Source: Xanthobacteraceae bacterium
GTDB taxonomy: Bacteria > Pseudomonadota > Alphaproteobacteria > Rhizobiales > Xanthobacteraceae
Assembly: GCA_019241285.1 (NCBI GenBank)
Contig: JAFAXD010000339.1
Span: 1 to 34,374, forward strand
Reading direction: 5' to 3'
DNA length: 34,374 bases
In this document: one piece after another, positions 13,957 to 18,652 of the stretch
Layout: every line of letters starts with the position of its first letter
Position numbering within the stretch: the first letter of the stretch is position 1
Position numbers and translations under genes: made by a program
The notes under the pieces: generated by a model
Seen by the model: only the letters and a program-made list of their open reading frames with translations
Told to the model about the DNA's origin: nothing
Database searches by the model: none

Positions 13957-16900
13957 TCAATGCCGATCCTTGGCTTCCGCTTCGAGTTGCGCTTTGAGCG
14001 CCGCCAGTTTGGCAAACGGGGAATCCGGATCAGGCTCCTTGCCGCGCCGGTCGCGCCCCGCCTCCCAGACCCGCGGCGGCCGATCTTCGTCGCGCCGGTC
14101 ACGCCGGCGATCCCGATCCCGCCCTTCGCGCCGCCCCTCGTGGCTGCGAGGCGCTGCGCGATCTGTTGTATCGCGCGGTTTGCGGCGGTCCTCACGATCG
14201 CGGCGAGGCTCCTCCCGATGGGGTGTTGGCGACGGAGCCTCTGCGGCGGCCTGCCCTGCGGCAGGCGCTTGGGTCTGCGCCGGTGACTCCGCCGGTTTTC
14301 TGTCGCGCACCGGCCGCCGCCGTCGCGGCCTTCGTTCCTCGGACCGACCTGGCCGCCAGACCTCAATGTACTCCGGCTCGGCTGCGGCCGGGGTGTCGGG
14401 CTTCTCAGCACTTGACGCCTCGGCCTCCGTCGGCCGTTCGGTTGCATCGAGGCCCGCCTCTTCGGCCGCCACTGCACCTTCCGCCGGTACCTCTTCGGAC
14501 ACCGCTAGGACCTCGGAAGTTTGCGGTTCGGCTGCGGAGTCCTGCTCGGCTTGAAGCTCCGTCGCGGCCGGTTCAACCACAGCGTCGGTTGCCGCCTCAG
14601 CAGGCCCGTATTGAGCCGCCGTAGCCGGCTCCTCAGCAGATAAAGGCGGCGTCGTGTCCGGTTCCGCGAGCGCTTGCTCGACAACGCTTTCCTCAGCGGA
14701 AGGAGCTTCAGCGGGCGACGCCTCGACAGGCCGCGGGCGGCGGTCCAGGCGATAGCCAAGGGCGCGCAGGATCGAGCCAAAATCCTCACCCGACGACCCC
14801 GTGAGCGACGTCATGGCTTGGGTGACGGTGAAGCCACGCCCGTCAAACGCACCGGCCGGCTTCGGCGTGACACCATCTTTCCAGAGCAATGCGGGCCGGA
14901 TCAGATCGGCCAACCGCTCCAAAATATCGACGCGCACCGCGCGTTCCCCGCACACGCGATATCCTATGGTGCGGTAGAGCTGTTTGTTGGTGTCCTGGTC
15001 GACCCGGAATGACGTGCGGCCGCTGGCCGCAAGGCGCAGCAGCTCATCCATTCCGGTGAGATCGGGGCCGCCGTTCTTGAGCGCCCACAATTGCGCGGCG
15101 AGCGCGCGTGGACCCGGCTTGAGCAGCGCCGGCACATAGATATGATACGCCCCGAAACGAACGCCGTGCTTGCGCAACGTCGCGCGCGCAGCTTGATCGA
15201 GGTTCTTGACGTCGTCAGCGACTTTGCCGCGCTCCAACACCCCGAGGGCTTCGACGATCTGATAAGCAATGCCGCGGGCGAGGCCGGTGATGTCGTCAGC
15301 CGCACTCAGCACGAACAGCGGCGACAAGGCGCGTTCGATGTGCGTGTGGGTCCACAGGTCGAGCCGCGTCTGCACCGCTTCTTGTGCGGCACCAGTCAAA
15401 TGCTCGTCGGCCAGGATGCGCACCCGCGGGCGCAGCAGATTGTCGCCTGCCGTGAGCTTCGCGACCGCATCACCAATCCAGCGGATGGTCCCATCCGCGG
15501 CAAGGACAAACTGCGAATCCGGCGCGTGCGCGAGGCGCGTAGCGCGCGCCTCGATCTCGCCCGCCAGCGCTTTCTGCGCCGCGCCCGACAGCGCCTTCGC
15601 TTCCGATCCGCCCGCCGACGCATCGGGAGCAAAGCGAAAGCCCTCCAGTCGCCCGATGACATGGCCTTCGACGATCACGTCACCGGTCTTGCTGATTTCG
15701 GTTTCCAGCATCGCGTTCTCTTTGAGGCGTCGCATCAACACACTGGTGCGACGATCAACGAAGCGCTCCGCCAAGCGCTCGTGCAGGGCGTCCGATAGCT
15801 TATCTTCCACCCCGCGGGCAACGCCCTGCCAGTGTTCCGGATCTTTGAGCCAATCGGGACGGTTCGCCGCAAAGGTCCAAGTCCGGATGTGCGCGATCCG
15901 CGTCGATAATGTGTCGATGCCACCATCGGTGCGATCCGCCTGGGCGATCTGCTGTGAGAACCAGTCATCGGGGATGTTACCGTCCCGCATGAGAAAACCA
16001 TAGAGCGTCGTGACGAGCTCTGCGTGCGCGGCGGGTGAGATCTTGCGGTAGTCGGGGACCTGACAAACTTCCCAAAGGCGCTCAATTGCTGCGCGCGTCG
16101 TGGCGATTGCCCGTATGTCTTCATCGCGGCCCGCATGTTCGAGCACAACGATGTCTTCCGCCATCGGTGCGCGCGTGAGCCCCGGCAATGATGGATTCGT
16201 CGTCAACGACGCCGTGAGCGCGCCGATCGAGGAAAAATCAAGATCGTTGCTGCGCCATTGCAGCACGCGCACCGGGTCGAACGCGTGCGCTTCCAGCGCC
16301 TGCACCAACTCATGTTCAAATGGCGGACAGCGTCCGGTGCTGCCGAACGTGCCGTCGCGCGTCGCTCGGCCGGCGCGGCCTGCGATCTGCGCAAACTCGA
16401 TCGGATTGAGCTTGCGATATTGATAGCCATCAAACTTGCGATCCGATGCAAACGCAACGTGGTCTACATCTAGATTAAGACCCATCCCGATCGCGTCGGT
16501 GGCGACCAGATAATCGACGTCGCCCGATTGATACAACGCGACCTGCGCATTGCGGGTGCGCGGCGAAAGCGCTCCGAGCACGACGGCGGCGCCGCCCCGC
16601 TGGCGCCGGATCAGTTCGGCGATCGCGTACACTTCTTCCGTTGAAAACGCCACGATTGCGGATCGACGCGGCAGACGTGTAATTTTTTTGTCGCCCGAAA
16701 AGCTCAGCGTCGACAGCCGCGGCCGGCTCAACACATTGGCGCCGGGAAGCAGCTTGTCGACCATCGGCCGCATGGTGGCGGCCCCGAGGATCAGCGTCTC
16801 CTCGCGCCCGCGCCGATTCAGCATCCGATCGGTGAATACATGGCCGCGCTCAAGATCAGCGGCGAGCTGGATCTCATCGACGGCGAGGAACGCCACGTCG

Positions 16901-17199
16901 AGGTCGCGCGGCATCGCTTCGACAGTCGCGACCCAGTAGCGCGCATTCGGCGGCTTGATCTTTTCTTCACCGGTGATCAGCGCAACGGCGTCGCTGCCAA
17001 CGCGTTCGAGACACTTGTTGTAGACCTCGCGCGCGAGGAGCCGCAGCGGCAACCCGATGAGGCCCGAGCTGTGCGCCAGCATGCGCTCGATGGCGAGATG
17101 GGTCTTGCCGGTATTGGTCGGCCCGAGCACCGCGGTGACGCCTGCACCGCGCGCGCGGGGATCACGGTTCGGCGTTGCAGCGGAAAGAGAGAGTGCCAT
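13957..17199 (-). CDS. SUV3-like DEAD/DEAH RNA helicase with long acidic/basic C-terminal tail
   Basis: 1080 residues. The motor shows Walker A GPTNTGKT (26-33), motif II DEIQ (108-111), motif III-like GAAT (139-142), VATDAIGMGLNL (232-243) and motif VI QIAGRAGR (271-278), the pattern of the mitochondrial SUV3 / bacterial SUV3-like family of NTP-driven RNA helicases. A C-terminal helicase-associated region reaches about residue 810. The last 270 residues are low complexity: first a Glu/Ala/Pro-rich acidic stretch, then a strongly Arg/Asp-rich basic stretch (for example RREGRDRDRRRDRRDEDRPP), probably disordered and RNA- or partner-binding. It precedes an S4 RNA-binding protein gene. The 620-base region upstream holds two LexA-type boxes, the nearer ending about 105 bases before this start. 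Confidence 0.9.
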   Translation of the reverse strand: MALSLSAATPNRDPRARGAGVTAVLGPTNTGKTHLAIERMLAHSSGLIGLPLRLLAREVYNKCLERVGSDAVALITGEEKIKPPNARYWVATVEAMPRDLDVAFLAVDEIQLAADLERGHVFTDRMLNRRGREETLILGAATMRPMVDKLLPGANVLSRPRLSTLSFSGDKKITRLPRRSAIVAFSTEEVYAIAELIRRQRGGAAVVLGALSPRTRNAQVALYQSGDVDYLVATDAIGMGLNLDVDHVAFASDRKFDGYQYRKLNPIEFAQIAGRAGRATRDGTFGSTGRCPPFEHELVQALEAHAFDPVRVLQWRSNDLDFSSIGALTASLTTNPSLPGLTRAPMAEDIVVLEHAGRDEDIRAIATTRAAIERLWEVCQVPDYRKISPAAHAELVTTLYGFLMRDGNIPDDWFSQQIAQADRTDGGIDTLSTRIAHIRTWTFAANRPDWLKDPEHWQGVARGVEDKLSDALHERLAERFVDRRTSVLMRRLKENAMLETEISKTGDVIVEGHVIGRLEGFRFAPDASAGGSEAKALSGAAQKALAGEIEARATRLAHAPDSQFVLAADGTIRWIGDAVAKLTAGDNLLRPRVRILADEHLTGAAQEAVQTRLDLWTHTHIERALSPLFVLSAADDITGLARGIAYQIVEALGVLERGKVADDVKNLDQAARATLRKHGVRFGAYHIYVPALLKPGPRALAAQLWALKNGGPDLTGMDELLRLAASGRTSFRVDQDTNKQLYRTIGYRVCGERAVRVDILERLADLIRPALLWKDGVTPKPAGAFDGRGFTVTQAMTSLTGSSGEDFGSILRALGYRLDRRPRPVEASPAEAPSAEESVVEQALAEPDTTPPLSAEEPATAAQYGPAEAATDAVVEPAATELQAEQDSAAEPQTSEVLAVSEEVPAEGAVAAEEAGLDATERPTEAEASSAEKPDTPAAAEPEYIEVWRPGRSEERRPRRRRPVRDRKPAESPAQTQAPAAGQAAAEAPSPTPHREEPRRDREDRRKPRDTTDRAAPRSHEGRREGRDRDRRRDRRDEDRPPRVWEAGRDRRGKEPDPDSPFAKLAALKAQLEAEAKDRH

Positions 17200-17304
17200 T
17201 CAATGTCCTGGCGCGGTTGCCGGCTGATGCGCAAGCCCGCAGTGCTCGATGACCTTACGGTAGTGATACTCGGGGATCGTGGATCATCCGCGCATTAACG
17301 TTGT

Positions 17305-17319
17305 GAACGGGCTTCGAAC
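17305..17319. promoter_or_regulatory. LexA (SOS) box, copy 1
   Basis: GAAC-N7-GAAC (GAACGGGCTTCGAAC), the reverse complement of GTTC-N7-GTTC, the direct-repeat LexA motif of alphaproteobacteria. A further GTTC follows after another N7 (17327-17330), so the same DNA also reads GAAC-N7-GTTC. It lies 105 bases before the helicase start codon. Confidence 0.6.
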
Positions 17320-17373
17320 GAATCGCGTTCGAATCGCGGACCTATGTTCAATCCGGATTCGTTCACGGCGACA
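17305..17373. repeat. Duplicated element, copy 1, with stem arms GAACGAAT / ATTCGTTC
   Basis: Aligns without gaps to 17596-17664 at 52 of 69 positions. The outer boxes and both arms of the inverted repeat (17316-17323 and 17357-17364) are identical in the two copies, while most differences fall in the central loop around 17347-17356. This is the pattern of a structured or protein-bound element rather than a coding one. Confidence 0.75.
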
Positions 17374-17595
17374 GCTCGCGTCTCCGAGCGCCAACACCAC
17401 AACATAGGGGGGCAATGTGGATCCTGCGAGGCGAAAAAACATCATCAATCCTTAATGCGCGAATTGCCCCCGATCTCAGTTTTGTCGTTAGCCCGAACTC
17501 GGGCGCAAAACCAGAACCCCGCTATGCAGCAGCATGATCACACGCCCACGTGACAAGCGCATAAGCGCGCTAAAACCTGGATGTTCTGGTTCTTA

Positions 17596-17610
17596 GAACG
17601 AGTCTCGAAC
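17596..17610. promoter_or_regulatory. LexA (SOS) box, copy 2
   Basis: GAAC-N7-GAAC (GAACGAGTCTCGAAC), a second exact match to the alphaproteobacterial LexA direct-repeat motif at the same place in the duplicated element. The third half-site of copy 1 is degenerate here (GCCC for GTTC). Confidence 0.58.
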
Positions 17611-17664
17611 GAATCGCGCCCGAATCGCTGACTCATGGCTTGTACTCATTCGTTCACGGCCACA
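17596..17664. repeat. Duplicated element, copy 2, with stem arms GAACGAAT / ATTCGTTC
   Basis: Second copy, exactly 291 bases from the first. Arms at 17607-17614 and 17648-17655. The sequence just after it, GGCCACATGTGGAGGCC, forms a further palindrome; the matching position after copy 1 holds an unrelated hairpin (GCTCG/CGAGC at 17374-17389). Confidence 0.75.
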
Positions 17665-17821
17665 TGTGGAGGCCATCCGCGATCTCTCACGCTAAATGCA
17701 GTGTATTTTCGGTTCTGGCGCGCTCCCGCACGAGCAATGAGGTCATTGCCGTTGCGACTCCACGAGCCGCAAGCAGAGTCAATACGTCACCTGAGATTCT
17801 TGCCGAAATTTATGTCCTGAT

Positions 17822-18652
17822 TTACTGACCGAGCCTGGTCGGCGTGACATTGGGCTGCTGACTGGCAGTGAATTGAGTCGCCTGCATAACGCCGGTTCCG
17901 AGTGGCGTCGGCAGCCTGAACCAAAACGGCACGAGCACGCGAGTCGCCCCAATAGGGGCCAGCGCCACTTCCATATCGCGCTGCGCAATCAGGTATTTGA
18001 GCGCGGCGCGCTCGGGACGATAACCGGCGATCGGGCGGAAATAGATCGCACAGACCACCACGGGTCCTTCATAGCTCTTGTCCAGCTTCACCCGTTCCAT
18101 GCGCTTGTAAGCCAGCTGCAGGTCGTAACGCATACGGCCGTCGAAGATCGAGACCGTGCGTCTACAAGCCTCCGGACTGACCGGATCGCCATTTCCAGGC
18201 ATGCGCAGGAGGGACGCGCTCATTGGATCCGTTACCCCACGCAGGTGCGCCTCGGTCACCGGAATTCGGTCGGGGCCGGGGGGCGGCGGTTGGGGTACAA
18301 TCGAGAATTCCTTGACGTTGCCGCCGGCAATCAGCATGCGCAGAGTGTCGGTTTCGCCGTCCTGGGTGATGGTCGCCGCATAGTTTCCCGGCGCTAGGCG
18401 CCCGTTCACAATGGCGCCCCGCACCGCACTTGTGCCCGCCCCGGTGGAGAATATGCGCAGCAGGCCCGTCGTGGCTCCGCTCGCAGCGGCCGTATACTGA
18501 TCATCGGCGATTTCGATGACCCAGTTGCCCTTTCCGATGGTCACTCCGGCAAAAGTGACCACGAAACGCGCGTCGAGCTTCGCCTGGGCGCAGGCGAGCT
18601 GAGGCGCCAGCGCAAGCGCGGCCGACAACAGCGCACTGCGAATGGACGGCAT
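17822..18652 (-). CDS. DUF3108 domain protein, exported
   Basis: 276 residues. A Sec signal peptide (MPSIRSALLSAALALAPQLACAQA) is followed by the beta-rich pattern of DUF3108 proteins: FVVTFAGVTIGKGNWVIEI, GLLRIFSTGAGTSAVRGAI, CRRTVSIFDGRMRYDLQLAYKRMERVK and VVVCAIYFRPIAGYRP near the C-terminus. It is expected to be periplasmic; the molecular function of this family is not established. It diverges from rpmB, with about 100 bases between its start and the rpmB promoter. Confidence 0.8.
   Translation of the reverse strand: MPSIRSALLSAALALAPQLACAQAKLDARFVVTFAGVTIGKGNWVIEIADDQYTAAASGATTGLLRIFSTGAGTSAVRGAIVNGRLAPGNYAATITQDGETDTLRMLIAGGNVKEFSIVPQPPPPGPDRIPVTEAHLRGVTDPMSASLLRMPGNGDPVSPEACRRTVSIFDGRMRYDLQLAYKRMERVKLDKSYEGPVVVCAIYFRPIAGYRPERAALKYLIAQRDMEVALAPIGATRVLVPFWFRLPTPLGTGVMQATQFTASQQPNVTPTRLGQ

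Follow-up and report, generated by a model that had tools for sequence, protein, structure and literature searches.

A probable ancient cis-regulatory DNA module, duplicated upstream of a SUV3-like helicase gene in Alphaproteobacteria

We have analysed a window of 34,374 bp (the whole of contig JAFAXD010000339.1 from a Xanthobacteraceae bacterium) in which the gap between two genes holds two copies of the same composite element. This region is probably a duplicated, ancient and composite cis-regulatory DNA module, situated upstream of the gene for a SUV3-like helicase. By comparing sequences among genomes we could establish the architecture of the module, how deeply it is conserved, that it always has the same orientation to SUV3, that copies exist in tandem and, occasionally, at other loci, and that some lineages have lost it. 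It has been kept before this helicase gene across much of the Alphaproteobacteria. As to what reads it, the candidates that we consider below are NrdR, the methyltransferase CcrM, LexA and a further DNA-binding protein, as well as readings in which the element is transcribed.

The locus and its two copies

The gap is flanked by the gene of the SUV3-like helicase (13957-17199, minus strand; DEXQc_Suv3 and Helicase_C domains by Pfam), whose start faces the module, and by that of a DUF3108 protein (17822-18652, minus strand, also by Pfam), whose 3' end borders the module here and is not adjacent to it in many relatives. From the start of the helicase at 17199 to the stop of DUF3108 at 17822, no open reading frame reaches 100 aa, in agreement with the first-pass annotation, which had described the region as free of genes. 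The same annotation had drawn attention to two GAAC-N7-GAAC motifs within two copies of 69 bp at a distance of 291 bp, and both observations were recovered by a motif scan and a direct-repeat search. The motif (GTTC-N7-GTTC if read on the minus strand) is exact at 17305-17319, 106 bp from its start to the helicase start, and at 17596-17610, and the repeat extends over 17305-17373 and 17596-17664 (69 bp, 75% identity, spacing 291 bp). By itself the bare motif is near chance level, both in the window (3 occurrences, a number also attained in 9 of 100 shuffles, versus 1.06 expected) and across the 6.6-Mb genome (168 exact matches versus 181 for a reversed control). The copies as units, unlike the bare motif, are far above chance.

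The GAAC motifs belong to a larger element that reads GAAC-N7-GAACRAA-N4-G-N-CCGAATCR...TTYGTTC, followed by two palindromic boxes of the CNANATNTNG type 31 or 32 bp apart. In the direction leading away from the helicase, the order of the parts is block A, TTAA, block C, the inverted TTYGTTC, the two CNANATNTNG boxes and a second cluster of GANTC sites, and the duplicated regulatory stretch covers ca. 120-250 bp. In copy 1 (plus strand) a TTAAC lies just 5' of the repeat (17295-17299); a TTAA at about -10 is a recurrent part of the module in the alignments, and TTAA is enriched from -150 to 0. Block C of this copy, GAAC-N7-GAACGAA...TTCGAATCGCGGACC (17305-17343), was delimited by the direct repeat and by its match to the pattern of the relatives, with half-sites at 17305 and 17316 and CGAATC at 17330-17335. 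It is followed by the inverted half-site TTCGTTC (17358-17364, plus strand), which is kept in the alignment, and by two boxes that resemble those of NrdR, a box being called when at least five of six key positions agreed. These are at 17366-17381 (CGACAGCTCG core at 17369) and, 31 bp after it, at 17397-17412 (CAACATAGGG core at 17400), each with five of the six positions.

Copy 2 has the same layout. A degenerate block A (17537-17558, plus strand) corresponds to TGTCTCACAATGCGACGC in the relatives and to the palindrome GTCCCGAAACGGGAC in one of the genomes (G012). Its block C, GAACGAGTCTCGAACGAATCGCGCCCGAATCGCTGACTC (17596-17634, plus strand), is the form kept in the relatives and contains four GANTC sites, at 17600, 17611, 17622 and 17630. 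The inverted TTCGTTC (17649-17655, plus strand) was identified from the alignment; the first NrdR-like box (17657-17672) carries the palindrome CCACATGTGG at 17660 with all six key positions, and the second (17689-17704) has CTAAATGCAG at 17692, 32 bp further on, with five of six. The second GANTC cluster (17756-17799) includes GACTC at 17756, GAGTCAA at 17776 and GATTC at 17795, and matches a GAGTCAA block located 150-300 bp downstream in the relatives. In the entire window, the only two box pairs spaced at 31 or 32 bp are those of the two copies.

Conservation and association with SUV3

When the gap and its borders were searched at the DNA level against 40 related genomes, the block 17596-17634, extending to about 17670, was matched in most genomes of the same family and in two from other families. 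The identity was often 80-95%, although most of the gap, unlike this block, gave no alignment. The aligned block reads TGTNTCACAATGCGACGC ... TTAA ... GGAACGAGTCTGGAACGAATCGCGCCCGAATCGCTGACTC ... TTCGTTCAC ... RACATSTSG ... CCACTAGATCGAG. We then defined a core pattern (GAAC-N7-GAAC-N-AA-N7-CGAATC, 16 bases, at most one mismatch) and searched whole genomes with it. It was present in 139 out of 149 genomes of the family, with a single match of the reversed control among the matches listed. With one extra fixed base, as used for the order and class scans, it appeared in 210 of 297 genomes of the order, where the reversed control was almost without matches, and in 23 of 289 of the class, part of the latter being chance matches; those of six families (f152, f58, f102, f53, f65 and f157) stand in front of SUV3, also in other orders of the class. 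The named genera that carry the module include at least Bradyrhizobium, Rhodopseudomonas, Nitrobacter, Afipia, Bosea, Devosia, Kaistia, Roseibium, Stappia and Methyloligella. Positions left free by the pattern are still constrained, with a purine in 100% of the cases at offsets 15 and 31, G in 96% at offset 22 and C in 90% at offset 24. The expectation that the boxes would be conserved in relatives while the flanking bases drift, put forward as a check by the first-pass annotation, agrees with the alignments, including that of 23 Bradyrhizobium loci in which the module (a unit of ca. 270 bp ending in the second GANTC cluster) is kept, the surroundings drift and the space that separates the module from SUV3 is free to vary. 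At three Bradyrhizobium loci (L184, L195 and L197), palindromic repeats of the GGCTTGACCGGGCGATCCAGTACGCCGCGG type are inserted in this space and leave the module undisturbed.

Taking adjacent genes as called by a simple method based on third-position GC, SUV3 adjoins the block-A side of the module in 164 of 202 non-redundant loci, and its start codon faces the module in all 164, which supports the tie between the boxes and the SUV3-like helicase suggested earlier. The distance between them has a median of 110 bp (range 1-712 bp). Adjacency to DUF3108 is secondary and missing in several families. SUV3 itself was found in all ten element-poor genomes chosen for follow-up; several of these have no module upstream of an intact SUV3, and others keep intact or divergent copies. 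The module is thus not essential for having SUV3, as several lineages have the intact gene without it.

Copies of the module are single or in tandem, the tandem spacing ranging from 100 to 790 bp and often being ca. 254 or 222-224 bp. In one family (f48; L152 and L153), three to four diverged copies fill ca. 0.9-1.2 kb upstream of SUV3 and form a noncoding array of unusual length, and one assembly has two SUV3-DUF3108 loci with a module at each (G013:C19 and G013:C98), by duplication or contamination. The DNA search detected no further copy elsewhere in the genome of the window. A mobile repeat was discarded on these grounds, the genome having no other copy by DNA search and the position being kept across families, and no similar DNA was found in a plasmid collection.

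Some genera have extra dispersed copies, most of which likewise precede a start codon. Their neighbours include a secreted coiled-coil protein (9 loci), a glutamine-synthetase-like gene (5) and TonB receptors (2); other dispersed copies are not before a start codon, e.g., those at GIY-YIG loci and one between convergent genes (L104). The secreted coiled-coil protein (motif QDVPGIEICTAEKTMERRTSCLQSNVNFL) has an upstream module in many relatives (L105, L074, L227, L252, L280 and others), and is a candidate for a co-regulated partner of SUV3. At five loci without SUV3 (L045, L046, L047, L076 and L077) a module copy is flanked by a DUF3108 paralogue on one side and the glutamine-synthetase-like gene on the other. 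DUF3108 accompanies the module twice, at this locus and at that of SUV3.

What may read the module

The two palindromic boxes resemble an operator of NrdR. NrdR is a regulator that senses the building blocks of DNA (dNTPs) and, to our knowledge, has been described almost entirely from ribonucleotide reductase genes. For orientation we used what we take to be the letter consensus of the NrdR box. The spacing rule is that of PMC12051234, according to which the binding sites of NrdR are paired palindromes of 16 bp with a gap of 15-16 bp, about three turns from centre to centre. Among 252 elements, 196 have a CNANATNTNG box ca. 64 bp after the first GAAC; as they are related by descent, they do not represent independent events. 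A second box follows at 31 bp in 93 and at 32 bp in 40 of them (133 of 196), 12 more have it at 30 bp, and nearly all other spacings occur 0-5 times. The two main spacings alternate among elements. Five or six key positions of the boxes hold 1.6-2.0 bits, figures raised by the five-of-six filter, and the 15-bp linker between the boxes is almost without information (ca. 0.05 bits per position). NrdR is encoded in all seven genomes tested, that of the window and six relatives (TIGR00244 above its cut-off).

The likeness to an NrdR operator lies in several features: two palindromic boxes at 31 or 32 bp from start to start (a linker of 15-16 bp), an unconserved linker and NrdR encoded in the genome. 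There are also differences. Box 1 is conserved at all six key positions, but in box 2 the T that the NrdR palindrome has at position 11 is systematically missing (T in 18%). The probable NrdR pairs that precede nrdJ are poorer in G+C than either box of the module; they have the 31-bp spacing in some of the same genomes and centres unlike those of the module. Besides, the module is not located before a ribonucleotide reductase gene and its boxes are embedded among GAAC and CCGAATC words. The passages of the NrdR literature within reach (with most subscription papers and the RegPrecise tables outside the search) make no mention of such a site. From these sequence features, the paired boxes may well be a non-canonical NrdR operator, although we lean slightly towards doubting it.

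The direct repeat GTTC-N7-GTTC is the established LexA operator of the Alphaproteobacteria, and the first-pass annotation had taken both motifs for LexA-type boxes, with the helicase or a small transcript under SOS control. Both window copies have the exact GAAC-N7-GAAC (a direct repeat with 11 bp from one half-site to the next), the pair is kept in the copies of all 26 relatives first found by DNA search, and the half-site GAAC-R-AA resembles that of LexA. However, the boxes preceding uvrA, dinB, imuA and recA of the same genome (GAACAAAAAGAGAACAA, GAACAAATAGAGAACAC, GAACAAAGAGAGAACAT and GAACATATTGCGAACAT; the genes were recognised by eye from their N-termini) read GAAC-A-(A/T-rich)-GAAC-A, whereas the window boxes have a G after each GAAC and lack the A/T-rich spacer. 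Under a small model built from these four sites, the window boxes obtain -4.0 and -7.9 bits, which places them 41st and 85th among the 100 sites listed of the 168 GAAC-N7-GAAC matches. In some other orders, the first GAAC can decay to GATC, GACC or GGAC and the rest of the motif stays. The module does not precede any known SOS gene, it has more half-sites, including the inverted one 42 bp away, and LexA would leave the CCGAATC and TTYGTTC words unexplained, GAAC-N7-GAAC being merely the edge of a longer motif. Given this sequence evidence we have rejected the LexA operator and consider it very improbable that the module is one. Elsewhere in this genome, a LexA-like box (GAACAATACGAGAAC, 3.3 bits) was observed near an apparent biotin synthase gene (L379, G000:C210:9905). 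An EcfG promoter (GGAAC-N16/17-GTT) was also rejected since the spacing does not fit, and no sigma-70-type promoter was matched in this region of the window.

Could the module be transcribed instead? It might represent small RNA genes that form a family with tandem and dispersed members, each having a conserved promoter of its own, and the core would then be the promoter or the 5' part. Whole units do duplicate in tandem and keep their architecture at other loci, even in the gap between convergent genes mentioned above. However, RNAalifold applied to the alignment gave six pairs with zero compensatory changes, and the sole candidate helix (GAACRAA/TTYGTTC) has varying partners whose counts in a strand test (G-C 114, G-T 51, A-C 16, A-T 25) imply that neither strand keeps the pairs, so that a structured RNA was rejected. 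The alignments contain no conserved terminator, the window has one weak terminator match at chance level, and Rfam returned a single weak and unrelated match, none of relevance. Tandem units can be as short as 100 bp and the orientation to SUV3 is fixed. We find a family of RNA genes unlikely. A small protein was rejected as well, as the conserved words, with spacings of 11 and 14 bp, cannot share a reading frame. It had been pointed out that an ATG follows each box by 25 bases; this is true of both window copies, but the ATG is missing at that position in nearly all relatives. The small plus-strand transcript that was suggested to start there fails for these reasons, the ATG being unconserved, no coding frame fitting and no RNA pairing holding.

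The density of GANTC, the sites of CcrM methylation, allows another interpretation, in which the module would be a site of chromosome maintenance (controlled by methylation, or acting in titration or segregation) that happens to sit beside SUV3. GANTC reaches 50/kb in the core, where the pattern that we searched imposes one site per copy (that of CCGAATC). The density is 13/kb at 150-300 bp downstream and ca. 1-2/kb in the flanks. Of the 36 single changes seen at the first GANTC (offset +4), 28 affect the free N, as would be the case if selection kept the methylation site itself. Sequences like DnaA boxes (TTWTNCACA) are enriched at 150-300 bp downstream of the core (0.34/kb versus 0.00-0.05/kb elsewhere) and occur in ca. 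5% of the loci, e.g., L019, L033 and L035; copy number and spacing are tolerant. Against it, the orientation to the helicase gene is consistent and the element is not the origin: oriC, a candidate raised by the GANTC cluster and the DnaA-like boxes, was rejected because in G192 the origin given by GC skew is ca. 0.5 Mb away. In another genome (G139) the element is in the origin-proximal part, at coarse sampling. We regard such a maintenance site as improbable. As in promoters regulated by GcrA/CcrM, GANTC is dense in the module, with several sites in 11-bp phase and TTAA sites nearby. The difference is that only one core GANTC has the free-N signature, which is absent at +15 and +34. The part of the literature searched describes no CcrM-regulated promoter with this architecture.

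Implications for the control of SUV3

The composite cis-regulatory module that we favour would act through DNA-binding proteins, neither as an RNA or peptide nor as an operator for LexA, and would set the transcription of the SUV3-like helicase. The paired boxes, as a non-canonical NrdR operator, would tie expression of the helicase to the supply of dATP and other dNTPs; a putative further protein would bind the GAAC and CCGAATC words, and CcrM methylation of the clustered GANTC may add a timing coupled to replication. The complete scheme, in which the module couples SUV3 expression to NrdR and CcrM via an undescribed protein reading GAAC-N7-GAACRAA-N6-CCGAATCR, is a doubtful proposal as a whole, one that we advance tentatively. 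The literature searched, mostly without subscription papers, gave no match for the sequence words of the module or for the combination of GAAC, LexA and direct repeat.

Noncoding DNA that is conserved across bacterial orders usually marks an important and discoverable regulator. A binder specific to the GAAC/CCGAATC part, if there is one, would be a protein yet to be discovered. If NrdR reads the paired boxes, this regulator would extend from ribonucleotide reductase genes to RNA metabolism. The SUV3 family is best known from the mitochondrial RNA degradosome, and its role and control in bacteria have been little studied. If the coupling proposed here is true, RNA turnover would be linked to replication status in Alphaproteobacteria.
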